Shown: piece by piece, positions 31,948-42,706 of the stretch
Layout: every line of letters begins with the position of its first letter
Numbering within the stretch: position 1 is the stretch's first letter
Assembly: GCF_902459745.1 (NCBI RefSeq)
Contig: NZ_CABPSJ010000003.1
Location: 124,001-188,000 of the forward strand
Reading direction: 5' to 3'
From: Pandoraea communis
GTDB taxonomy: Bacteria; Pseudomonadota; Gammaproteobacteria; Burkholderiales; Burkholderiaceae
Length of the DNA: 64,000 nt
Translations under genes and position numbers: made by a program
The notes under the pieces: generated by a model
What the model saw: the letters and a program-made list of their open reading frames with translations, nothing else
Told to the model about the DNA's origin: nothing
The model's database searches: none

Positions 31948-33408
31948 ATGACCGACACCGTCACCCCGACCCAGCCGTCGCTCGACACGGCGGCATTGCG
32001 TGAATTCGTCGAACGCAAATGGAATGACGAAATTCTGCATGCACTGACCGACTACATCGCGGTACCCGCCAAAAGCCCCGGTTTCGATGCCGATTGGGCA
32101 CGCAACGGCTACATCGATCGCGTAGTGCGCGACGCCGCCCAATGGGCGGAACGTCAACCGGTCAAGGGACTGCGGCTCGAAGTGATTCGTCTGGAAGGCC
32201 GCACACCGGTAATCTTTTTCGAAGCGCCGGCCACGCGCTCGGGCAGCACCGAGACGATCGTGCTCTACGGTCACCTCGACAAGCAGCCCGAGTTCGATGG
32301 ATGGCGCAAGGACCTCGGCCCGTGGACGCCCAAGTTCGAAGACGGCAAGCTCTATGGCCGTGGCGGCGCGGACGATGGCTACGCGATCTACTCGAGCGTG
32401 ACGGCGCTCGCCGCTCTCGATGCGCAAGGGGTGGAGCGCCCGCGTTGCGTGGGTCTCATCGAGACGTGCGAAGAGTCGGGCAGCTACGATCTGCTGCCGT
32501 ATGTCGACGCACTGCGTGAGCGTCTGGGCCGTGTCGGTCTGGTCGTCTGCCTCGATTCGGGGGCGGGCAACTATGACCAGTTGTGGCTGACGACATCGCT
32601 GCGCGGCCTGATCTCGGGCAGCCTCGAAGTCCAGGTGCTCGACGAAGGTATTCACTCGGGCGGCTATGGCGGGATTGCGCCGTCGAGCTTTCGCATCATG
32701 CGTCAGTTGTTCGAGCGTCTTGAGGACGCCGGCACCGGCAACGTGCTGCCGCAGGGCTTCCATGCGCCGATTCCGCTACAGCGTCTGAAAGAGGCGGAAG
32801 CCACCGCACATATTCTTGGTGACGACGTCTGGAAGAAGGTGCCGTGGGCCTGCGGTCAGGACGGCCTGTCGGTGTTGCCGACCACGACCGATCCGAAGGA
32901 AGCGCTGCTCAATTCGACGTGGCGTCCGTCGCTGTCGGTGACGGGGGCTGCCGGTCTGCCCGCGCTGGCCGATGCGGGTAACGTGCTGCGCCCGCGCACG
33001 GCGTTCAAACTGTCGCTGCGTCTGCCGCCGCTCGTTGACGCTGCCAAGGCCGTGGCCGAACTCAAGTCGTTGCTCGAACTCGATCCGCCGTACAACGCGA
33101 AGGTGACCTTCAAGTCCGACGCCGGCGCGGCCTCGGGCTGGAACGCTCCCGACGTAGCCCCCTGGCTCACGTCGGCGCTGAATACGGCATCGCAACGGCA
33201 CTACGGCGAGGATGTCGCATACATCGGGCAGGGCGGCACGATCCCGCTGATGAACACGCTGCAAGCCGGTTTTCCGACGGCGCAGTTCATGGTGTGCGGC
33301 GTACTCGGTCCGAAGTCGAACGCTCACGGCCCGAACGAGTTTCTGCACGTGCCCTACGCGAAGAAGCTGACCGCTGCGGTGGCCGAGGTGATCGCATTGG
33401 CGCCTTGA
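31948..33408 (+). CDS. M20-family metallopeptidase (dipeptidase-like)
   Basis: 486 residues. The di-zinc site of the M20 family is visible: VLYGHLDKQPE (H109, D111), YGRGGADDGYAIYS (D142) and IETCEESGSYDLL (E175/E176 with the catalytic glutamate), plus a late GGTIPLMNTL and a HGPNEFLHV histidine near the C-terminus. It most resembles cytosolic dipeptidases of the CNDP/M20A kind, with a dimerisation lid in the middle. A strong terminator follows at 33457-33489. Not part of the leftward catabolic operon, with which it converges. Confidence 0.92.
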   Translation: MTDTVTPTQPSLDTAALREFVERKWNDEILHALTDYIAVPAKSPGFDADWARNGYIDRVVRDAAQWAERQPVKGLRLEVIRLEGRTPVIFFEAPATRSGSTETIVLYGHLDKQPEFDGWRKDLGPWTPKFEDGKLYGRGGADDGYAIYSSVTALAALDAQGVERPRCVGLIETCEESGSYDLLPYVDALRERLGRVGLVVCLDSGAGNYDQLWLTTSLRGLISGSLEVQVLDEGIHSGGYGGIAPSSFRIMRQLFERLEDAGTGNVLPQGFHAPIPLQRLKEAEATAHILGDDVWKKVPWACGQDGLSVLPTTTDPKEALLNSTWRPSLSVTGAAGLPALADAGNVLRPRTAFKLSLRLPPLVDAAKAVAELKSLLELDPPYNAKVTFKSDAGAASGWNAPDVAPWLTSALNTASQRHYGEDVAYIGQGGTIPLMNTLQAGFPTAQFMVCGVLGPKSNAHGPNEFLHVPYAKKLTAAVAEVIALAP

Positions 33409-33510: not shown

Positions 33511-34773
33511 TCAGAGCCGATGCGTGGCGGCGTCCAGCACCTGCACGCCGCGCATGAAGTCATCGAGATCCATGCTTTCCAGCGGATTGTGTGAGCCATT
33601 GGCGTTACGTACGAATACCATGCCGCTCGGAATGCCTGCGTTGGCGAAGATGGCGGCGTCGTGTCCGGCGCCACTCGGCACCCGTTCCTGAGGAAGATCG
33701 AACGTGCGGCAGACGTCGACCAGCAACGACGACACGTGCGCATCCATGATTGCCGGGGGCGACGAGAGTCGCCGGTCGAACACGAACTGCACGCCGCGAT
33801 CGCGTTCGATGGCGCGGCACTCCGTGCGCATCAACTCGTAGAAGACATCGAGCGTATCGGTGCTCTGGCTGCGCACTTCCAGACTGAAATCCACCTTGCC
33901 CGGAATGCGCGAGATGGCATGCTCGGCGGGATCGGTGCCGACGATACCGGTGGTTACCACCAGATCGATGCCACGCTCGAGCAGGGCGCGCCAATGCTCG
34001 TCGAGACGCGTGATGAGATCGGCCACCGCGAACATGGCGTCGTGACGCAACCAGCGCGGCACGGCCCCCGAGTGACCCGCCTCGCCCACACACGACACGC
34101 GATTGTGGCGAACATTGCCGCGAATGCCGGGCACGATGGCCACGGGCAGGTTGCGCGCGACCATCACCGGACCCTGTTCGATGTGCAGCTCCAGCCACGC
34201 TTTGGCTCGCGAGGCGTCGAACAGCATAGCCCCGTCGCGAATCGCGTCGACGTCGGCGCCGGCCTGCGCCATGCAGGCCGCGAGCGAGCGGCCATGCGTG
34301 CGATGGGGCATGGCCAGATCGGCGTCGTTCAGTTTGCCGAACAGCGCACTCGATCCCATGTATGCACGGCCGAACCACGCGCTTTCTTCGCCACGCAGTG
34401 CGAGCACGCGTACCGGTGTGGCGGGATGACGCTGGCTGCGCCGCTGTTCGACCAGGCACAGCAGACCGGCCACGATGCCGGCGAGACCGTCGTAGTTGCC
34501 GCCTTGCGGTACGGAGTCCAGATGCGAGCCGATCCATGTAGCGGGGGCGTTGCTGGCGTCACCGATATCGTCGGGCAGCGTGAAGATCAGGTTGGCGGCG
34601 CGGTCGCGCGTGACGGCCAGTCCCTGATGTCCGGCCCATTCCGTCAGATACGAGGCTGCGGCATTCTCGCCTTCGCCGTAGCTGTCGCGGGTAATGCCGA
34701 CGCCATCGTCGCCAAGACGGCGCAGGTCGGTGAAGAGTTGCTCGGCCAGCGGGGCCAGCGCGTTCAGTTCCAT
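33511..34773 (-). CDS. Zn-dependent M20 amidohydrolase (N-carbamoyl-amino-acid hydrolase/allantoate amidohydrolase type)
   Basis: 420 residues of the amidase/hydantoinase-carbamoylase branch of M20. Metal and catalytic residues: WIGSHLDSVPQGGNYDG (H84, D95), ALRGEESAWFGRAYMG (E129/E130), WLELHIEQGP (H197) and GAGHDAAIFANAGIP near the C-terminus. These enzymes hydrolyse N-carbamoyl groups (ureidosuccinate, N-carbamoyl-beta-alanine, allantoate). Last gene of the leftward operon with the dihydroorotate dehydrogenase-like pair. That context favours a carbamoyl-aspartate-type substrate, but this is inference. 60 bp separate it from the dehydrogenase gene. Confidence 0.9.
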   Translation of the reverse strand: MELNALAPLAEQLFTDLRRLGDDGVGITRDSYGEGENAAASYLTEWAGHQGLAVTRDRAANLIFTLPDDIGDASNAPATWIGSHLDSVPQGGNYDGLAGIVAGLLCLVEQRRSQRHPATPVRVLALRGEESAWFGRAYMGSSALFGKLNDADLAMPHRTHGRSLAACMAQAGADVDAIRDGAMLFDASRAKAWLELHIEQGPVMVARNLPVAIVPGIRGNVRHNRVSCVGEAGHSGAVPRWLRHDAMFAVADLITRLDEHWRALLERGIDLVVTTGIVGTDPAEHAISRIPGKVDFSLEVRSQSTDTLDVFYELMRTECRAIERDRGVQFVFDRRLSSPPAIMDAHVSSLLVDVCRTFDLPQERVPSGAGHDAAIFANAGIPSGMVFVRNANGSHNPLESMDLDDFMRGVQVLDAATHRL

Positions 34774-34833: not shown

Positions 34834-35784
34834 TCAGCCGGATTGCTGTGCAAAGCGCAGCCAACGGTCGGTCAGTTGGGCGTCGAGGGCGACGGCGCCG
34901 GTGAGCGTCGCGACGTGATCGATGGCCTGTGCGTCGCAGTACGCCGCGAGTCCGTCGATGATGTGTCCCATCACGGCCGGATCGCGGAACGACGCCGTGC
35001 CGACCTGCACGGCCGACGCGCCCGCGAGCATGAATTCCACGGCGTCGTCTGCCGTTTCGATACCGCCGCAGCCGATGATCGGAATGCGCACCGCACGATG
35101 GCATTGATGCACGAGCCGAATGGCGAGTGGCTTGATCGCCGGTCCGGACAGACCGCCCATCACGTTGCCGAGCTTGGGCTTGCGCGTGCGCACGTCGATC
35201 GCCATGCCGAGCACGGTGTTGCCCATGACGATGGCGTCGGCACCGGCGTCTTCCGCTGCTTTGGCAATCAGCGCGATCTGACCGGCGTTGGGTGTGAGCT
35301 TGACCCACAGCGGGTGCGAGGTGCGCCGGCGAATGGCGCTCACGGCCTTGTATGTGGTCTCGGGCAGCATGGCGAAGGCCATGCCGTCCGCTTCGAGGTT
35401 CGGGCAGGAGATGTTCGCTTCGATGGCCGCGACTTCCGGCAGCGAGAGCGTCTCGCAGGCTTGCCCGAAAGACTCCGCCGTATCGGCAGACACCGACACC
35501 ACCACGGGCGTATCGAAACGTGTATAGGCGGGCAGAACATCGCGCCGGTAGGTGTCGAGGCCCTTGCTCGGAATGCCGATGGAGTTGAGCATGCCGCTGG
35601 CGGTCTCGGCCACGCGCGGCGTCGGATTGCCCGCACGCGTGGCAGGCGAGACGCTCTTGACGACAAGCGCGCCGAGCCGGGTCAGGTCCAGCGCTTCGGC
35701 ATATTCGACCGCGAAGCAACCGGAGGCCGGCATGACCGGATTGCGCAAGGTGAGCGATCCGATGCGTACGGAAAGATCAGCCAA
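34834..35784 (-). CDS. Dihydroorotate dehydrogenase-like flavoprotein, class 1B type
   Basis: 316 residues, FMN TIM-barrel. Family motifs: RNPVMPASGCFAVEY, KSVSPATRAGNPTPRVAET, MLNSIGIPSKGL, EANISCPN with the class 1 catalytic cysteine, VKLTPNAGQI, VMGGLSGPAIKPLA and IIGCGGIETADDAVEFMLAGASAVQVGTA. The class 1B assignment rests on the adjacent PyrK-like gene. The start is a TTG at 35784 with GGAGG six bases upstream, overlapping the PyrK-like stop by 8 bp; an ATG seven codons upstream (35805) is the alternative. Betaproteobacteria normally make pyrimidines with the membrane class 2 enzyme, so this NAD-linked type probably serves catabolism. Confidence 0.88.
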   Translation of the reverse strand: MADLSVRIGSLTLRNPVMPASGCFAVEYAEALDLTRLGALVVKSVSPATRAGNPTPRVAETASGMLNSIGIPSKGLDTYRRDVLPAYTRFDTPVVVSVSADTAESFGQACETLSLPEVAAIEANISCPNLEADGMAFAMLPETTYKAVSAIRRRTSHPLWVKLTPNAGQIALIAKAAEDAGADAIVMGNTVLGMAIDVRTRKPKLGNVMGGLSGPAIKPLAIRLVHQCHRAVRIPIIGCGGIETADDAVEFMLAGASAVQVGTASFRDPAVMGHIIDGLAAYCDAQAIDHVATLTGAVALDAQLTDRWLRFAQQSG

Positions 35785-36709
35785 AGTCCACCTCCCCGAC
35801 GACATCTCGAATCGGAAACACAGGGCCTTCGCGGCACACGCGCAGGAATTGCTTGTCGCCATCGCGATCGAACAGGCGCACGCAGGACAGGCAAACGCCC
35901 ATGCCGCACGCCATGCGTTGCTCCATCGCCACCTCGGCGGTGATGTGCGGGTGTGCGTGCAGCACACGCTGGAGCAGCATCAACAGACGATGCGAGCCGC
36001 AGGTGTAGACGGCGTCGTGCGGTGTGGCGTCGAGCAGGGCGCGTATGCGCGGCGCCAATGCCTCGACGGCCGACGAGCCGTCGGTGTCGAACACGCAATG
36101 CACGTCGGCCAGTGCGCGGGCCTGCGGCGAGCGCAGGAATTCGTCGCGCATCAGATCGGCCTCGCTGCGGGCCGACATGACGACCGTCAACTTCAGCCCG
36201 GCCGCCGCCGCGCGCTGCACGAGCGGCGCCATTGTCGCGAGCCCCACGCCGCGCGCCACCAGCATCACGCGCTGCCACTGCTCAGGCTGCGTGTTGAGCG
36301 TGAAGGTGTTGCCCAGCGGGCCGACGATATCGAGCGTTGCCCCTTCCGGCAGGGTGGCCAGCGCACGTGTGCCAACGCCCGTCACGTTGTAGAGAAATTC
36401 AATGGTGTCCGGCTCGGGGCCGGTGCCGTACACGCTCATGGGGCGCAGCAGGAAGGGCGCGTCGCTGTCGGTGACCGGGCACTTCAATTGGTAGAACTGG
36501 CCGGGCTGCGTCGTGAGGGCGACGGGCGCATCTGCCTGCAGACGCAGATAGCGGTAACGCGCATTGACGGCGCGATGCGCGAGCACGCGGCAACGATGCG
36601 TCGCAACCGTAGGGGTGGGGCATGTCGCCTCTTGCGCGGCATGTGTGTCCGGGGGCACCGGCGCCCATGGGCGGGTGACGTCGGCACACGTCAGAGTGGC
36701 AACTGACAT
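35777..36709 (-). CDS. PyrK-like FAD/[2Fe-2S] electron-transfer subunit
   Basis: About 310 residues. A ~55-residue N-terminal extension of unknown role precedes a ferredoxin-reductase FAD domain (YRYLRLQADAP, PGQFYQLKCP, FLLRPMSVYG), an NAD-binding domain (GLATMAPLVQRAAA, YTCGSHRLL) and a C-terminal [2Fe-2S] motif Cx4Cx2Cx15C starting CGMGVCLSC. PyrK passes electrons between NAD(H) and the FMN of class 1B dihydroorotate dehydrogenase. The ATG at 36709 has GGAG close upstream. Its stop overlaps the start of the partner gene, consistent with a stoichiometric heteromer. Confidence 0.9.
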   Translation of the reverse strand: MSVATLTCADVTRPWAPVPPDTHAAQEATCPTPTVATHRCRVLAHRAVNARYRYLRLQADAPVALTTQPGQFYQLKCPVTDSDAPFLLRPMSVYGTGPEPDTIEFLYNVTGVGTRALATLPEGATLDIVGPLGNTFTLNTQPEQWQRVMLVARGVGLATMAPLVQRAAAAGLKLTVVMSARSEADLMRDEFLRSPQARALADVHCVFDTDGSSAVEALAPRIRALLDATPHDAVYTCGSHRLLMLLQRVLHAHPHITAEVAMEQRMACGMGVCLSCVRLFDRDGDKQFLRVCREGPVFPIRDVVGEVDFG

Positions 36710-36787
36710 GGGGGCTCCGAATAAATGGGGGCGGGCGTTGTGAGGCGACGCGACGACGTCGTAACGTCGCACGCGTCGTGTCTCCCG

Positions 36788-38050
36788 TTACTCGAGTTCA
36801 ACGCCTTTGAGTTCGGGGATCAGGAAACGCGTCGCGAACATGTCGAGCACGTAAAGACTCGCGAGCAGCGCGATGGCGATCTGGAACGAGTAGCGGGCAG
36901 CGAGTGCACCGACGACGACAGGCCCCAACCCGCCGATGGCGCGTCCGATGTTCCACAGCACGTTCTGCGCGGTGGCGCGTGCAGCGGTGGGGTAGGCCTC
37001 GGACATGAGCGTGCCGTAGCCGCCGACCATGCCGTTGACGAACATGCCCATCAAGGCACCGGCGAAGAGCATCACCATCGGGTCGGTCAACTGGGCGTAG
37101 ACGAGCACCATGACCACGGCCCCCGCCTGATACAGCAGGAACGTGGGGCGGCGTCCGATACGGTCGGCCAGTTGCCCGAACGCCCAGACGCCGATCATCA
37201 TGCCGATCACGGTGACTGCAGTCCAAATGCCAGACTTCGTGAGCGAGAAGCCGAGCTTCTGCGAGAGGAACGTCGGCAGCCAGATCATGATGCCGTAGTA
37301 GCCGAAGTTCTGGACCGAGCAAAGAATCACGATGCCCAGGCTCACCCGGGTGGTGCGGGCGTCCTTCACGAGCAGACGGAAGGCGTTGCTGCCCTGACCT
37401 GACTTCGCAGGCTTGCCGGTGCGTCGCACGAAGACTTCGGGCTCGTGCAGCTTGTTACGCAGCACCCACGCGACGAGTGCCGGCAGCACCCCCACGAGGA
37501 ACATGCCGCGCCAGCCGATATGCATCAGCAACAGCGGTGTGAGCAGTGCCGCGGCGAGTACGCCCGTCTGCCAGCCCAGCGCGACGTAAGACGAGACGCG
37601 TGCGCGTTTGGCCGCAGGCCACGCTTCGGCGGCCAGCGCCATGCCGATGCCGAATTCGCCGCCGAGTCCGATGCCCGCAATCGTGCGATACACGAGCAAG
37701 TCCCAGAAGCCCTGCGCAAATGCGCACAGCCCGGTGAAGACGGCGAACAGCAGGATCGTCCACGTGAGCATACGCACACGGCCGTAGCGATCCGAGAGCG
37801 CACCGAACAGAATGCCGCCCGCGACGGCGCCGATCAGTGTCCACGTCACGAGTGCACCGGCCTGGCCCGGCGAGAGTTGCAGCCCAACCGTAATGGCCGG
37901 GAGCATGAAGCCGAGGATCAGCAGATCGAAACCGTCCATCGCATAGCCGATGGCAGAGCCCGCAAGCGCTTTCCATGCGTAAGGGGTAACGATGTCGTCG
38001 GACGTGGCGCCTGGGCGTTGGGCACTCGGTGTGTTCAGGTTGGCTTCCAT
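36788..38050 (-). CDS. MFS transporter (aromatic/organic acid:H+ symporter-like)
   Basis: About 420 residues, twelve spans. Visible: SAIGYAMDGFDLLILGFMLPAI (the DGFD motif of acid symporters), FGALSDRYGRVRM in loop 2-3, YRTIAGIGLGGEFGIGMALAAE, and the second-half GQLADRIGRRP. It probably imports an organic acid such as orotate or a related substrate for the downstream enzymes. The ATG at 38050 has AGGAA about 8 bases upstream. First gene of the operon; a 16-bp palindrome lies 72-87 bp upstream, where it would fall between -35- and -10-like sequences. Confidence 0.9.
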   Translation of the reverse strand: MEANLNTPSAQRPGATSDDIVTPYAWKALAGSAIGYAMDGFDLLILGFMLPAITVGLQLSPGQAGALVTWTLIGAVAGGILFGALSDRYGRVRMLTWTILLFAVFTGLCAFAQGFWDLLVYRTIAGIGLGGEFGIGMALAAEAWPAAKRARVSSYVALGWQTGVLAAALLTPLLLMHIGWRGMFLVGVLPALVAWVLRNKLHEPEVFVRRTGKPAKSGQGSNAFRLLVKDARTTRVSLGIVILCSVQNFGYYGIMIWLPTFLSQKLGFSLTKSGIWTAVTVIGMMIGVWAFGQLADRIGRRPTFLLYQAGAVVMVLVYAQLTDPMVMLFAGALMGMFVNGMVGGYGTLMSEAYPTAARATAQNVLWNIGRAIGGLGPVVVGALAARYSFQIAIALLASLYVLDMFATRFLIPELKGVELE

Positions 38051-38121
38051 GATCGGTTCCTGTGGGACGGTGAATCGACGCAGCGGGGTTAAACACCGCA
38101 CCGCGCGGTTTTCGTCAAATT

Positions 38122-38137
38122 GTCTAAATTTTTAGAC
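38122..38137. promoter_or_regulatory. Operator-like palindrome, copy 1
   Basis: GTCTAAA-TT-TTTAGAC, perfect 7-bp arms, upstream of the leftward MFS gene. On the minus strand a TTGATC just before it could be a -35 element, so a bound protein would block the promoter. Same motif as at 38556-38571 and 39911-39926. Confidence 0.65.
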
Positions 38138-38217
38138 GATCAAGTGAAAAAAATACCGCCGGGGAGATGCGAGCCAAGCGTCGTCCATCGTCACGCATCG
38201 TCATCATGCGTTATGCG

Positions 38218-38541
38218 TTATGCGTAGACCTCGGTCGTCAACTGTGCGGCGAAGCCGTTCAGCGTGGCGAGGAAGGTGGCATCGGAGGTGGCCGCTGCAT
38301 CGCGCAACATCGTGGCATGGGCTTTGGTGCGGGCGAGAAATGCCTGAAACGTCTCGCCGTTGGCGGCAATGCCCGACTGGCGTTCCGCGAACGTTTGTGC
38401 GGCCTGCGCGAGCAACAGCAACGCAGCGGATTCCCGCGTGGCCGTGCGCGACGCATTGAGACAACGTGCAGCAAAATCCTCGATGTCGGACAGACCGACC
38501 GTGTCGCGTTGTAACCAGACGCATGCAAGCTGCAGATCCAT
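38218..38541 (-). CDS. Orphan helical protein, about 107 residues
   Basis: Starts MDLQLACVWLQRDTVGLSDIEDFAARCLNASRTATRES and continues with alanine-rich amphipathic helices to a LTTEVYA end. No signal peptide, no family recognised. Start choice: the ATG at 38541 has GGAG six to seven bases upstream; ATGs at 38544 and 38553 are in frame, and the last lies only two bases from a perfect 16-bp palindrome, so the transcript may be nearly leaderless. Its promoter carries the same palindrome as the MFS operon and the porin, so it is probably a co-regulated accessory of that system. Confidence 0.65.
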   Translation of the reverse strand: MDLQLACVWLQRDTVGLSDIEDFAARCLNASRTATRESAALLLLAQAAQTFAERQSGIAANGETFQAFLARTKAHATMLRDAAATSDATFLATLNGFAAQLTTEVYA

Positions 38542-38555
38542 CATGCTCTCCATCT

Positions 38556-38571
38556 GTCTAAATATTTAGAC
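38556..38571. promoter_or_regulatory. Operator-like palindrome, copy 2
   Basis: GTCTAAATATTTAGAC, a perfect 16-bp palindrome 15-30 bp upstream of the ATG at 38541. It must overlap the promoter or the very start of the transcript of the 38218-38541 gene. Confidence 0.65.
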
Positions 38572-38714
38572 TAAACGAACCCGGCAGGGCAGGCAAGACG
38601 AAAATAATCGGGTCAAACCCTGATATCGAGACGCCATGCGACGGCAGCCATTGCTGATGAGCATTGCGTGCCGTCGCGTGCCTCGGGAAGGCTGGCGGTA
38701 TCGCCAGCCCTCAC

Positions 38715-39764
38715 TCAGAACTTCATGCGCAGGCCGGCGCCGTAGGTCTGTCCGGTCGACATGTCGCTCATGTGGTCGTACTTGTATGCGGCGTAGATGT
38801 CCGTGCGCTTGGACAGCGGGTAGTCGTAGCCGAGGGCCCATGTGGTGCGGCGCTGGTTGTCGCCCGAACCGTTCGAACCGGTATAGGCCACCGATGCGAG
38901 CACGCTGCCGCGGCCGAGCGGGACCGATGCGCCCAACTGACCCGTATTCGCGTGGAAGTTGCCGCTTGCGGCCTGACTTGCTACGAGCATGTACTGGGCG
39001 AAGACCTTCACCACGGCGAAGTCATACGAGAGGCCGAGTTGTGCCGTGTTCTGGTTGGTCAGCCCGGCGACGCCCGGCAACTGCGTGCCGAAGTCCCCCG
39101 GTGTCGCGCTGAAATTCACGTACTGATAGTTCGCGGCCGCGGCGAACGGGCCATTGGCGTAGGTGACGGACGCCGCCCATTTCTTCGCGCTATGGTCGGT
39201 CGCGCTGTTGCCGGTGGCGTAAAGCAACGTGCCCGCCAGCCCGGCGTAAGTCGGCGACGTGTACGCCACGGCGTTATTCCACGCCGAGTCGCCCACCACG
39301 CCCTGTGTCCCCAGACCCTTGTAGGTGTGGAAGATCATCGGCGAGAAGGTGTACGAGTTATTGAACGGGTTGAACTGGATCGTCGCCAGATAAAGCGGCG
39401 TCGTGATGCGGCCGAGGCGCAAGGTGCCGAGTCCGTTGGACAGGCCGACATACGCGTTGCGCGAGAAGAAGCTGTCGCCGGCGAAGCGGCCGTAGGTTCC
39501 GTTGTTCGGCTGGAAGTAGCTCTCGAGCACGAACAGCGCGCTGTTGCCGCCACCCAGGTCTTCGGTGCCGGCCAGGCCCCAATACGACGTGGTCATACCG
39601 CCGCCTTGCTGCACGACGGCAGCGTTGCCGCCCGGGTTCTTCACCGAGCCGACATAAGCGTCTGCCAGGCCGTAGAAGCTCACGCTCGATTGGGCGTGGG
39701 CCGTGGTTGCGAGCGTTGCGGCGCTCAGTGCGGCGGCACCAGCCACCTTGTGCCAGGTCTTCAT
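38715..39764 (-). CDS. Gram-negative porin (OmpC-like, betaproteobacterial family)
   Basis: About 349 residues. A signal peptide MKTWHKVAGAAALSAATLATTAHA, then the typical porin start QSSVSFYGLADAYVG and alternating beta-strands: SYWGLAGTEDLGGGNSALFVLES, FFSRNAYVGLSNGLGTLRLGR (loop 3 region), and the C-terminal YAAYKYDHMSD...GAGLRMKF ending in phenylalanine for BAM recognition. Trimeric outer-membrane diffusion channel. The start is one of two adjacent ATGs (39764 or 39767) after AGAGGA. Its upstream region holds palindrome copy 3, suggesting that substrate-specific uptake is regulated with the MFS operon. Confidence 0.94.
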   Translation of the reverse strand: MKTWHKVAGAAALSAATLATTAHAQSSVSFYGLADAYVGSVKNPGGNAAVVQQGGGMTTSYWGLAGTEDLGGGNSALFVLESYFQPNNGTYGRFAGDSFFSRNAYVGLSNGLGTLRLGRITTPLYLATIQFNPFNNSYTFSPMIFHTYKGLGTQGVVGDSAWNNAVAYTSPTYAGLAGTLLYATGNSATDHSAKKWAASVTYANGPFAAAANYQYVNFSATPGDFGTQLPGVAGLTNQNTAQLGLSYDFAVVKVFAQYMLVASQAASGNFHANTGQLGASVPLGRGSVLASVAYTGSNGSGDNQRRTTWALGYDYPLSKRTDIYAAYKYDHMSDMSTGQTYGAGLRMKF

Positions 39765-40110
39765 CATTTCCTCTTTGTTGTATAAATTTCTGGACGGCGC
39801 GCAGGCTATCACTGCCGGCGCGTGCGGTCACCCCCCAAACCACGGCAAACCTGCTCCCGGTGCAGGGCATTCCCACGCAATGGGGTATCCGTGTTCGGGA
39901 TCGTGCAGATGTCTAAAAAAATAGACAACAGGAAAAATATTCGCCGGGCGAATGTGGGGTGTTTGCGACAGTGCACCCAACGGGGCGGGGTGAGTAGGGA
40001 CTGTCATGGCGCGGCATCGGGACGTGCGGGCGACCGGTATAATCCCCGCACTGCAATGCGGGTGCGGCGCGATTGGCCGGGCCGGGCATTGGCATCCGAC
40101 AGGGGGCGAT
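39765..40110. other. Divergent promoter region between porin and XRE regulator
   Basis: About 346 bases without a gene, containing palindrome copy 3 (39911-39926) and an AT-rich patch just after it (39927-39945). Both the leftward porin and the rightward regulator must be transcribed from here. Confidence 0.45.
39911..39926. promoter_or_regulatory. Operator-like palindrome, copy 3 (imperfect)
   Basis: GTCTAAAAAAATAGAC: same 16-bp length and outer arms GTCTA/TAGAC as copies 1 and 2, with a degenerate centre. It lies in the divergent region between the porin and the XRE regulator, 147 bp upstream of the porin ATG and 185 bp upstream of the regulator start. Confidence 0.6.
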
Positions 40111-41025
40111 TTGAATCGAGCTGCGACGACATCCCGGGCGCCGAGGGGCGCGCGTTTCAATTTCCGAGCCATTGGCGAGCGCTTGCGCGCCTACCGGCTG
40201 GCGGCGGAATTACGTAGCGAGGATGTGGCGGAGCGCCTCGATATCTCACGCGCGGCCATCTATAAGCTTGAGCGCGGCGAGATCGTCAAGATCGATACGC
40301 TTGAGCGGCTCGCGGCACTGCTGGGGGTGTCGCTCGCCAATTTGCTGGGCGTGGAAGTCGAATATCACGACTCGGCGGTGAGCTATTTCGAGCGGATGCG
40401 CCAGTTGGAGAGCCGCTCCGAGCGTATCGTCGCGCACTTCGACCCGATTTCGTTTCTGCTGACCTCGGAAGACTATGACGTGTGGCTGCGTCACATGCTC
40501 GACGAGAGCATTCCCCCCACGCTCGCCGACCGCCATTGGGCGAACACGATCGATCGCGTGCTGGGCATCTTGCAGGATCGCAAGTCGAGTTTCTCGCGTC
40601 AGCGGCTGGCGGTGACCAGCCTCATCGGGTTGCGCCAGATCGAGCAGTTCCTGCATCACGGACTCGTCGGGCGGCTGGGACTGCCGCCGGGCGTGCAGCT
40701 CGAGCGGAAGATGGCGGCACGTCGCGAGGTCGCGCGCATTGTCGAGTTCCTCGAGGCCGACACGACGGGCGTGCAGATCGGCATCGTGAGTGACAACATG
40801 CCGAACGAGACGTTCCAGATCTTCGAAGCGCAGGGCGAAGCCTATGTCGCTGTCTCGCCGTTCCGTCTGGGCGAGCTACCCAACTTACGTACTGGTATTG
40901 CCACGATCACGACCTCGCCTGACGGGGTGGGCATGTATCGCGCCATGATCGATCGCCTGTGGGCCGATTCGGCCAAGGGGAGGGAAGGCGCGGCCCTTTT
41001 GGGGCAACTGCTCGCACGTTTCTGA
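40111..41025 (+). CDS. XRE-family transcriptional regulator
   Basis: 304 residues. An N-terminal helix-turn-helix (RAIGERLRAYRLAAELRSEDVAERLDISRAAIYKLERGEIVKIDTLERLAALLGV) and a ~230-residue C-terminal part without a recognised domain, with RQIEQFLHHGLVGRLG, EFLEADTTGVQIGIVSDNMPNETFQIFEAQG and AYVAVSPFRLGELPNLRTGIATITT, which looks like a ligand-sensing fold. The start is a TTG at 40111 after AGGGGGC. It lies next to the porin/MFS/enzyme cluster and is the obvious candidate to bind the three GTCTAAA palindromes; this is inferred from position. Confidence 0.85.
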   Translation: MNRAATTSRAPRGARFNFRAIGERLRAYRLAAELRSEDVAERLDISRAAIYKLERGEIVKIDTLERLAALLGVSLANLLGVEVEYHDSAVSYFERMRQLESRSERIVAHFDPISFLLTSEDYDVWLRHMLDESIPPTLADRHWANTIDRVLGILQDRKSSFSRQRLAVTSLIGLRQIEQFLHHGLVGRLGLPPGVQLERKMAARREVARIVEFLEADTTGVQIGIVSDNMPNETFQIFEAQGEAYVAVSPFRLGELPNLRTGIATITTSPDGVGMYRAMIDRLWADSAKGREGAALLGQLLARF

Positions 41026-41155
41026 TGGCGGTGGGAAACGGATGCGCTGGTGCCACAAAGCGAAGCCATTCGACATTATCGATATCCCCGCACGGCGAAT
41101 CCATTTAGTCTCCACGCGCCTGAAGACCATCCGGTCTGTTTATCTGGAGACGATC

Positions 41156-42706
41156 ATGGGAACAATTTCCGCAGCATCGAGCCATTCGCCGGTGCAAATC
41201 CTTTCCGCTAACTGGTCGAAGCCGCCTGAAGACGGGAACAGCTTCGGCTCTGACTTTCAGCGACTGGGGTCGGTCGCCACCTCCGCGCTTGCGCCAACCG
41301 GCAAGTCCTGGCAGACGTATCCCGCACGGCAGAGAAGTGATCTGGAGAAGTGTGGCATTCCGCTTGGCACTTGGTGCGGTGAGCGCGATCGGGATGTGCT
41401 TCATGCCAAGCGCCTGCAAGCCCACCCGCTGATGCCCAGGTTCGTCGGTGAAGCACTTGAGCGCTGGCGCTCCACCTATCTCGACGGTATTGGCAAGGAC
41501 GTGAGCTTCGAGCGCGATCGCGCGTCGTCCATGCAATCGGTGCGCTACGGCATTCCGCCTGTCGCCAAGCCGTTTGTTCGCGCATTCGACGTGGCACGGG
41601 TACGTGCCCAACTCGAGGAGATTACGCCACTGAACAACGAGATCCGTCAGTTGAATATGACGGTGCAATCGTTGCCGGAGGGAGAAACGAAGCGGATCGC
41701 GCGGGGAAATCTCGTTGACCTCGCTTCGCTCCGGGATGCCATGCTGGACCTGACCCTGGGGGCGCACGAACGCAAGCGCGACGAACTCAAGGCGGAAATC
41801 AGAGTACTGATCGCGCTCAACGACATGGCGCGCGAAGCCGAGAGAGAAATGACCAACGGCGGTGCCGACGTGCCATTGCGACTTTCCGTGCGCGATGGCA
41901 ACTGGGTGCTCAAACCTGCGGCTTCGACGTCCTGGTTCGCCAAGAACAAGACGCGTGCCGCCAACGACGCGGCACGGTTGGCGTTGCTGCTTGGCTATCC
42001 GGCAGATCAGCCGGTCTCGCTCAAGATGATTCGGGACCGAGGGTTCGGGGTGCACGAGTATTCGTCGGTGCTCAATCACGCCAAGGAAGGGGGGCGCGGG
42101 GCAGGGCGTTCGTGGCTTGCGGCCAGAGCGTTGGATATCGATGCGTGGAAGACCGAGGGCAGCACCGTGATGGACGATGCCATGCGCCCCCAGGAGAGCC
42201 GCAGACTTAGCGTCACGTCGTTGCCGGAGTCCGACGACAGTCGGTCCGATCCCGGCCTGTCCGGCGACGGACTATTCGACGAGCATCACTATGCGGTGCT
42301 GCCTCTGCGCACCGGCGAGCGCCAGGAACCTGGCGACACGCCCACGCCAGTGCGTGGCGAGCATCACAACGAGGGACTTCATCGGCACGCCGGTGCGCGA
42401 AGCGCGCTTGGCAATACACCCGTGCCCGTGCACGACGACACACTGCTTGACGAGGGTTTCGACGGCGTGCCGCATTTCGCCGGCCCGGACGGTAGCGAAT
42501 ACGCACTCGTGAGGCGCGCTGAAACGTCGCCGGGGAGCGTGAGACGGTCGCTGACGTCTGGCGCGGCGCGCTTTGCGCAGATGCTCAACGTGGCGCGTTC
42601 GCTTGACCCGCAGGCTTCGGAGGAACTGACGCCCCCATTGCTGCGGCGCTTGCCGGCGTCATCGCCACCGCACCTGCCGTTGTCGTTGCCGCCTATCCTT
42701 GAGTAA
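41156..42706 (+). CDS. Unrecognised 516-residue protein
   Basis: The ATG at 41156 has GGAG six bases upstream; the frame continues open for 38 codons before it, but these look non-coding. The first ~30 residues are serine/glycine-rich and non-hydrophobic (no Sec signal), residues ~100-300 are mostly helical and charged, and the last ~200 are disordered, rich in S, P, G and H, with loosely repeated GDTPTPV / GNTPVPV and DEHH / DEGF phrases. It ends in a proline-rich tail (LPASSPPHLPLSLPP). No family recognised. A modular, disordered protein without Sec signal could be a type III or VI secreted effector, but no secretion genes are nearby. Followed by its own strong terminator; monocistronic. 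Confidence 0.7.
   Translation: MGTISAASSHSPVQILSANWSKPPEDGNSFGSDFQRLGSVATSALAPTGKSWQTYPARQRSDLEKCGIPLGTWCGERDRDVLHAKRLQAHPLMPRFVGEALERWRSTYLDGIGKDVSFERDRASSMQSVRYGIPPVAKPFVRAFDVARVRAQLEEITPLNNEIRQLNMTVQSLPEGETKRIARGNLVDLASLRDAMLDLTLGAHERKRDELKAEIRVLIALNDMAREAEREMTNGGADVPLRLSVRDGNWVLKPAASTSWFAKNKTRAANDAARLALLLGYPADQPVSLKMIRDRGFGVHEYSSVLNHAKEGGRGAGRSWLAARALDIDAWKTEGSTVMDDAMRPQESRRLSVTSLPESDDSRSDPGLSGDGLFDEHHYAVLPLRTGERQEPGDTPTPVRGEHHNEGLHRHAGARSALGNTPVPVHDDTLLDEGFDGVPHFAGPDGSEYALVRRAETSPGSVRRSLTSGAARFAQMLNVARSLDPQASEELTPPLLRRLPASSPPHLPLSLPPILE

Follow-up and report, generated by a model that had tools for sequence, protein, structure and literature searches.

A 16-bp palindrome marks a small regulon beside an XRE-family regulator in Pandoraea communis, with orotate as its most likely substrate

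What does a 16-bp palindrome that recurs before neighbouring genes of Pandoraea communis control, and to what end? The question concerns a stretch of 64,000 nucleotides (contig NZ_CABPSJ010000003.1, positions 124,001 to 188,000; here the window), in which copies of the palindrome precede an operon of transporter and enzyme genes, an orphan gene of 107 residues (orf107) and a porin gene that adjoins the gene for an XRE-family regulator. Judged from sequence, the palindromes mark a genuine local regulon, whose regulator is very probably the XRE protein. For the reading as a whole, an XRE-repressed orotate-degradation regulon with three operators, we estimate a probability of roughly 0.82. The sites and the regulator are:

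38122..38137, no strand: candidate operator O1, GTCTAAATTTTTAGAC, 0 mismatches to GTCTAAANNTTTAGAC; 71 bp 5' of the start codon of the MFS gene (MFS-PyrK-PyrD-carbamoylase operon)
38556..38571, no strand: candidate operator O2, GTCTAAATATTTAGAC, a perfect 16-bp palindrome with 0 mismatches; ends 14 bp before the start codon of the 107-residue gene
39911..39926, no strand: candidate operator O3, GTCTAAAAAAATAGAC, 2 mismatches, fits GTCT-W8-AGAC; in the spacer between the porin and XRE genes, towards the porin; conserved
39780..39795, no strand: weak fourth site O4, GTATAAATTTCTGGAC, 3 mismatches; 12 bp before the porin ATG, just ahead of the porin ribosome site
40111..41025, + strand: XRE-family regulator, proposed repressor; helix-turn-helix (HTH) at residues ~18-78, then a phospholipase-D-like (PLD-like) C-terminal part without the HKD motif

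O1, O2 and O3 are the three sites claimed in an initial annotation of the window, and all of them were matched. Its statement that the 64 kb held no further copy stands for GTCT-W8-AGAC, which occurs in the window only at these three; O4, with its 3 mismatches, had been overlooked. This fourth site is partly conserved, being present at ≤3 mismatches in 9 of the 10 same-genus clusters L035-L044 (the exception is L043). At that threshold the window contains 4 palindrome matches, compared with a mean of 0.27 and a maximum of 2 in 100 shuffles. Throughout the 5.7 Mb genome GTCT-W8-AGAC occurs in exactly 3 places, which are O1, O2 and O3, and the reversed control in none; copies scattered around the genome, an outcome raised beforehand as refuting, were not found. 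When ≤2 mismatches were allowed, 4 places were found, O1-O3 and one on another contig.

We then considered the distribution of site and regulator across 150 genomes of the family, searched with the XRE protein and counting near-full-length matches of ≥53% identity. The regulator was present in 17. The exact palindrome was present in 14, comprising 13 of the 17 genomes with the regulator and 1 of the 133 others, and the reversed control gave 0. Nineteen of the 20 exact palindromes are located inside this cluster, while the twentieth is a stray within a long open reading frame (ORF) of G054, a genome without the regulator. Four genomes have the regulator but no exact site: G031 and G097, neither of which has the cluster, G034 (1 mismatch) and G138 (2-3 mismatches). 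Among 15 Pandoraea genomes, regulator, PyrK, orf107 and palindrome occur together in 11; one has the regulator alone, three have none of the set, and all four are without the palindrome. The tie of the site to regulator and cluster was thus upheld, as the site is absent from family genomes that lack the regulator or the cluster, save for the stray in G054.

Named genomes were also scanned with an alignment of the XRE protein, and the best 80 of 182 relatives were taken: 17 loci from Pandoraea, 15 from Orbaceae and 48 others. Close kinship is common among these loci, and the set overlaps with the 150 genomes in assemblies (e.g. L054/G117), so neither set of counts is independent; some loci lie on short contigs, and ORFs in GC-rich relatives were called by codon-position GC, which errs in places. 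The nearest named relatives, from Pandoraea loci L054-L068, show 92–99% identity, and 14 of the 17 loci of the genus contain the cluster. GTCT-W8-AGAC was found in upstream spacers of 14/17 Pandoraea, 12/48 other and 0/15 Orbaceae loci. A wider form picked after the sites had been viewed, RTCT-H-W6-D-AGAY, precedes MFS, XRE, orf107 or Rieske genes in 14/17 Pandoraea and 26/48 other loci; for the latter, shuffling gave a mean of 0.005 and at most 1 (200 shuffles). A site at the O2 position is also found in the Burkholderia/Paraburkholderia loci L069, L071, L072, L074 and L079. The small, nearly genome-unique regulon postulated beside the XRE gene is borne out by these results, with GTCT-W8-AGAC in 3 places of the genome and the site retained where other species and genera have a syntenic cluster.

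Farther afield the operator sequence appears to drift. One divergent example is GTATC-N6-GATAC, 5' of an MFS gene, and a Klebsiella plasmid carries GTATCTATTTTGATAC in its MFS-PyrK spacer. On a Pseudomonas putida plasmid, 4 operator-like sites were found, every one of them in a spacer of the cluster, and 3 of these have the mixed form GTCTA-N6-(T/G)ATAC; they look like intermediates between the operator forms. The drift from GTCTA-N6-TAGAC to GTATC-N6-GATAC can be traced across genera, with the 16-bp spacing kept.

The genes placed behind the sites, other than orf107, are:

36788..38050, - strand: MFS acid:H+ symporter, proposed orotate transporter; matches MFS_1, and its best NCBIfam model is 2A0115 (aromatic acid/H+ symport) at 347.8 bits, under the cut-off of 418.55
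35777..36709, - strand: PyrK-like NAD/FAD/Fe-S subunit; DHODB_Fe-S_bind over cut-off, with Cys 268, 273, 276 and 292
34834..35784, - strand: class 1B dihydroorotate dehydrogenase-like protein (PyrD/PyrDB), proposed NADH-dependent orotate reductase; PRK07259 at 362.3 bits (cut-off 269)
33511..34773, - strand: M20 hydantoinase/carbamoylase-family amidohydrolase, proposed N-carbamoyl-L-aspartate hydrolase (ureidosuccinase); TIGR01879 at 261.1 bits (cut-off 204)
38715..39767, - strand: outer-membrane porin; Porin_4 over cut-off

The earlier gene assignments were correct, apart from the start of the PyrD-like gene, which is better placed at the TTG at 35784. The PyrD-like protein also scores over the cut-off of TIGR01037. 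In an alignment with Lactococcus lactis DHODB (1ep1), the window protein retains the NISCPN motif, while its NSIG lies opposite NAIG and its VKLTPN opposite VKLSPN. Among solved structures, the best relative of the M20 enzyme is the N-carbamoyl-L-amino acid hydrolase 3n5f. Alignment with solved relatives revealed HLD, EE, LHIEQG, SHNP and EVR motifs, which we take to be the metal-site and carboxylate-site residues of those structures.

The substrate is suggested by the genes that travel with the cluster elsewhere. In the 48 loci outside Pandoraea and Orbaceae the linked genes are carbamoylase (42), PyrK (37), PyrD (37), orotate phosphoribosyltransferase PyrE (34), MFS (32), orf108, a counterpart of orf107 described below (30), dihydroorotase PyrC (16), aspartase AspA (16), orf107 (9) and malic enzyme (6). 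L049 and L050 were tested for PyrC and AspA, and in both loci the two proteins exceeded their NCBIfam cut-offs; the ORF that follows them in L050 corresponds to the N-terminal portion of a malic-enzyme model of greater length. PyrE was over cut-off in 3 of 5 loci tested. With dihydroorotase, orotate phosphoribosyltransferase, aspartase and malic enzyme encoded in the clusters of relatives, the substrate is most likely orotate, and the gene content reads as a route from orotate to dihydroorotate, N-carbamoyl-aspartate, aspartate, fumarate, malate and pyruvate. The single pyrC gene of the window genome is on another contig, as is not the case in relatives with an in-cluster copy. The description of the locus as a self-contained unit for uptake and degradation consequently holds for uptake plus degradation and fails for self-containment, as ring opening depends on that distant gene. 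A quinone-type PyrD encoded elsewhere in the genome can serve biosynthesis.

Two other uses of such genes have to be considered. The same regulon might act on uracil or thymine by the reductive pathway; PyrD/PyrK would then serve as dihydropyrimidine dehydrogenase, and the M20 enzyme would hydrolyse N-carbamoyl-beta-alanine. There are beta-alanine synthases among the solved M20 relatives, and a PreA model does match the window PyrD, weakly, at 132 bits. The same protein scores 362 bits as a dihydroorotate dehydrogenase, however, and no PreA, the enzyme of that pathway which the genome search covered, was found over cut-off in the window genome, where the best match (130.6 bits vs 335) is the cluster PyrD itself. 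Since the best solved M20 relative is an L-amino-acid carbamoylase and the clusters of relatives hold dihydroorotase, orotate phosphoribosyltransferase and aspartase, we consider this alternative very improbable. Alternatively, the cell might salvage pyrimidines from external orotate, taking it up and converting it to UMP through PyrE, as the linkage of PyrE in 34 of the 48 loci could suggest. Yet PyrE was found in none of the Pandoraea loci (0 of 17), such a pathway would be drained by a carbamoylase, aspartase and malic enzyme, and PyrD and PyrC are already encoded separately in the genome. Salvage in place of degradation seems to us very improbable, and we retain orotate breakdown as the most likely function of the cluster.

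How the sites would act was approached through the promoters and the spacers around them:

38568..38596, - strand: proposed orf107 promoter TTGCCT-17-TAGTCT, read by eye; its -10 overlaps O2; largely conserved in 15 sequences
39900..39928, - strand: proposed porin promoter TTGTCT-17-CACGAT, read by eye; O3 overlaps the -35 and the spacer
40038..40043, + strand: TATAAT, likely -10 of the XRE gene; conserved in aligned Pandoraea spacers

In 15 aligned Pandoraea spacers the sites stand out as conserved islands amid variable sequence. O2 is invariant at 16/16 positions, and O1 is a conserved but not invariant island. The overlap of O2 and O3 with proposed promoter elements favours repression. O3 is ~110 bp from the TATAAT of the XRE gene, so that control of the regulator by this site, which the initial annotation had implied, is not evident. 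A variant of the proposed regulon has the XRE protein as an activator, or has an intermediate (dihydroorotate or N-carbamoyl-aspartate) as the inducer. O1, 71 bp 5' of the MFS start codon, leaves room for an activator, and the promoters were read by eye; a consensus scanner gave no sigma-70 promoter within 36700-40200. At O2, by contrast, 14 bp before a start codon and overlapping the conserved TTGCC-17-TAGTCT, there is little room. We regard this variant as unlikely, though well worth keeping in view, and continue with the XRE protein as a repressor.

Besides the silence of the promoter scanner, several results weigh against an XRE-repressed orotate regulon. The P. communis cluster is without pyrC, aspA and pyrE, and no AspA over cut-off was found in the window genome. 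PyrE was below cut-off in 2 of the 5 loci tested, the L050 malic enzyme was below the cut-off of its longer model, and the window PyrK matches PyrK equivalog models only below their cut-offs. With regard to the sites, the reversed control at ≤2 mismatches gives 3 genome places compared with 4 for the pattern, which means that the loose genome search discriminates poorly. Loss of the palindrome from syntenic clusters that keep the regulator, an outcome raised in advance, did not occur in any of the 14 Pandoraea clusters; beyond the genus, however, 22 of the 48 loci have no RTCT-type site, of which 14 have a more divergent 16-bp form (a pattern drawn post hoc and counted without a shuffle control) and 8 have none. 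No Pandoraea-form site was found at 3 mismatches in the Klebsiella and Variovorax plasmid clusters. Finally, the regulator can outlast the cluster. Pandoraea cepalis, P. eparura and P. terrae (3 of the 17 Pandoraea loci) keep it without cluster or site, and 15/15 Orbaceae loci have it without the cluster, where it may have another role.

This persistence of the regulator also lends some support to the idea that it is a bystander, and that the palindromes serve a different binding factor or work as hairpins in RNA. The sites nevertheless go with the XRE gene and the cluster and are missing where the cluster is missing, with one stray exception, and the XRE gene is the only regulator gene recognised in the window cluster. 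Pairing breaks down at the core of O3, a defect expected to harm a hairpin more than a pair of DNA half-sites. The bystander explanation is accordingly very doubtful, and the palindromes are best viewed as operators of the XRE protein.

The regulator itself scores over the Pfam cut-offs for an HTH (HTH_31, 47.5 bits with a cut-off of 27; HTH_3, 44.2 bits with a cut-off of 23). Its C-terminal part, described previously as impossible to place, can now be placed. In an AlphaFold2 model of mean pLDDT 84.7 this part gives matches to PLD-like folds; TrmBL2 is among the 4 Foldseek matches at E≤0.001, whose TM-scores are low (0.31–0.40 by query length). The HxKxxxxD catalytic motif is present in 0 of 50 aligned relatives, whereas residues S249, P250, F251 and N258 are present in 50/50 and R252 in 49/50. 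The model thus assigns the C-terminal part to a phospholipase-D-like fold with its catalytic residues absent. There is in addition a weak similarity to DUF5753 (PF19054) in 15 of the 50 relatives at E≤10 (best E 1.4e-4), with no such match in the window protein. The TrmB winged helix (PF01978) is not among the 10 matches of the regulator at E≤10, and was found in 6/50 relatives (best E 0.041).

The small gene behind O2 is:

38218..38541, - strand: orf107, a 107-residue helical protein, partner gene of the clusters; AlphaFold2 five-helix model, pLDDT 84.6

Searches of Pfam and NCBIfam gave no match to the protein at E≤0.01, and a fold search with its five-helix bundle model gave no informative match. 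It is encoded in 17 of the 150 family genomes, 14 with the cluster and also G015, G052 and G095. In G015 and G052 it precedes an MFS gene 69–71% identical to that of the window, with a 3-mismatch palindrome 15-17 bp upstream, and in G095 it follows a carbamoylase homolog. The orf108 product of Cupriavidus, Pigmentiphaga, Variovorax and others is a remote homolog (hhalign probability 81.5, E 1.2e-5, 100 columns). One or other of the two genes accompanies 14/14 Pandoraea clusters and 39/48 other loci.

We infer the following model, in which binding, repression over activation, the identity of the inducer, the enzyme substrates and a role for orf107 are the inferred parts. The XRE protein (40111-41025) would bind the three palindromes as operators and repress three units, namely the porin gene, orf107 and the MFS-pyrK-pyrD-carbamoylase operon. 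Binding of an inducer, orotate or dihydroorotate, to the catalytically dead phospholipase-D-like sensor domain would lift repression. Orotate would be imported by the porin and the MFS symporter and reduced with NADH to dihydroorotate by the PyrD/PyrK pair. Dihydroorotase would open the ring, the housekeeping pyrC doing so in P. communis and the in-cluster copy in relatives. The M20 carbamoylase would split N-carbamoyl-aspartate, yielding CO2 and ammonia along with aspartate. Where a species has them, aspartase and malic enzyme would pass the carbon to central metabolism.

The chemistry of orotate breakdown has been familiar for decades, from its fermentation by Clostridium (Zymobacterium) oroticum and from early reports of aerobic orotate degraders. 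The chemistry proposed here is the same as that of C. oroticum, with an NAD-linked class 1B orotate reductase, dihydroorotase and ureidosuccinase leading to aspartate. In contrast to C. oroticum, the present cluster is proteobacterial, genetically defined, regulated and partly plasmid-borne, and includes a transporter, a porin, a regulator and a small protein. The PyrD and its PyrK-like partner resemble L. lactis DHODB, as a class 1B PyrD with the catalytic NISCPN kept, but have a catabolic setting beside a second, quinone-type PyrD. The carbamoylase shares its M20 family and motifs with 3n5f and the allantoate amidohydrolase AllC (1z2l), and differs in its predicted substrate, N-carbamoyl-L-aspartate.

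The archaeal transcription factor TrmB has a PLD-like sensor, and the window regulator is like TrmB and TrmBL2 in the fusion of a DNA-binding domain to a PLD-like domain. It differs from them in being bacterial, in having an N-terminal XRE HTH and not a winged helix, and in its ligand, likely orotate and not sugars. Actinobacteria have XRE regulators composed of an XRE HTH and a C-terminal DUF5753; the likeness consists of the HTH and the weak DUF5753 similarity in relatives, whereas the window protein has no such match at E≤10 and comes from another phylum and genomic setting. A search of open-licence literature returned no gene-level account of orotate catabolism in proteobacteria or of this gene set, and no description of this sensor architecture (DUF5753 and PLD-like sensors included). 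The regulatory logic is ordinary, with a local regulator, few operators and catabolic genes; it is the gene set and the sensor architecture that are new in the searched literature. The finding yields a complete, testable gene list for orotate breakdown, and also offers a sensor fold for structure determination and a new family of small proteins.

Plasmids carry the system as well. Relatives of the XRE protein were found in 73 plasmid records and of PyrK in 72, 53 of them from Klebsiella in each case. On the Klebsiella pneumoniae plasmid pBckp091-1 (L183, 3052-16046), which is from milk, the cluster comprises MFS, PyrK, PyrD, a Zn hydrolase, pyrC, XRE and orf108, with lacY and lacZ 1.4 kb past orf108; by eye, the hypothetical gene before MFS looks porin-like. 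The 13-kb segment from MFS to lacZ is present, ≥80% of it in one place, in at least 49 plasmid records. Passages of PMC8614319 describe orotic acid as part of the non-protein nitrogen in ruminant milk, at 20-100 mg/L in cows. The lac-linked copies are suggestive of a milk niche, in which orotate and lactose co-occur; this applies to the Klebsiella plasmids only and says nothing on Pandoraea. It is not favoured by the sources of the plasmids, since among the matches listed only 9 of the 49 segment-bearing Klebsiella rows came from milk or mastitis, compared with 27 human, 6 other or environmental and 7 unstated. In 3 annotated plasmid records the dihydroorotate dehydrogenase genes (and pyrC in 2) carry pyrimidine-biosynthesis Gene Ontology terms, with which a catabolic role is easily missed.

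We tentatively propose, at slightly worse than even odds, an undescribed mobile orotate-utilisation system. Its repressor would sense orotate through a dead PLD-type pocket (S249, P250, F251, R252, N258) behind the XRE HTH, orf107/orf108 would be a new family on which uptake, induction or the working of the carbamoylase depends, and the capture of the system beside lacYZ on Klebsiella plasmids would be a milk adaptation.

A number of neighbouring genes were also noted. In L069, L071, L072, L079 and L048:12922 the cluster is flanked by a Rieske oxygenase gene, a DASS/CitMHS-type transporter gene and a SLOG-family gene, with 3-mismatch operator-like sites 95-96 bp 5' of the Rieske gene; these genes are possibly a second branch of the regulon. 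G097 has no cluster, but its regulator has a DASS-family symporter ORF nearby, and a 3-mismatch site is located just 5' of the symporter (L046:8432-9992). The regulator of the Gilliamella/Orbus loci (L112, L117-L124, L126, L127, L129-L131 and L133) is 49–52% identical, and none of the searched cluster genes and no RTCT-type site 5' of the regulator were found in these 15 Orbaceae loci. In 15/15 of them it is 25-105 bp 5' of one conserved gene (84–100% identity to the L112 copy), which from its sequence looks to be aroA.

Loci L177-L179 have PyrK/PyrD pairs of a second type, with 43–54% identity, in other settings, with no XRE gene or site in the stretches examined. An M20 dipeptidase-like gene (31948-33408) adjoins the cluster in 14/14 cluster-bearing Pandoraea loci. 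It was rejected as a regulon member, having no site 5' in the window and remaining in L045, L067 and L068, where the cluster is missing; of the 3 named Pandoraea loci without the cluster, 2 keep it. Directly after the regulator, at 41042-42706, the window contains an ORF of 554 residues.

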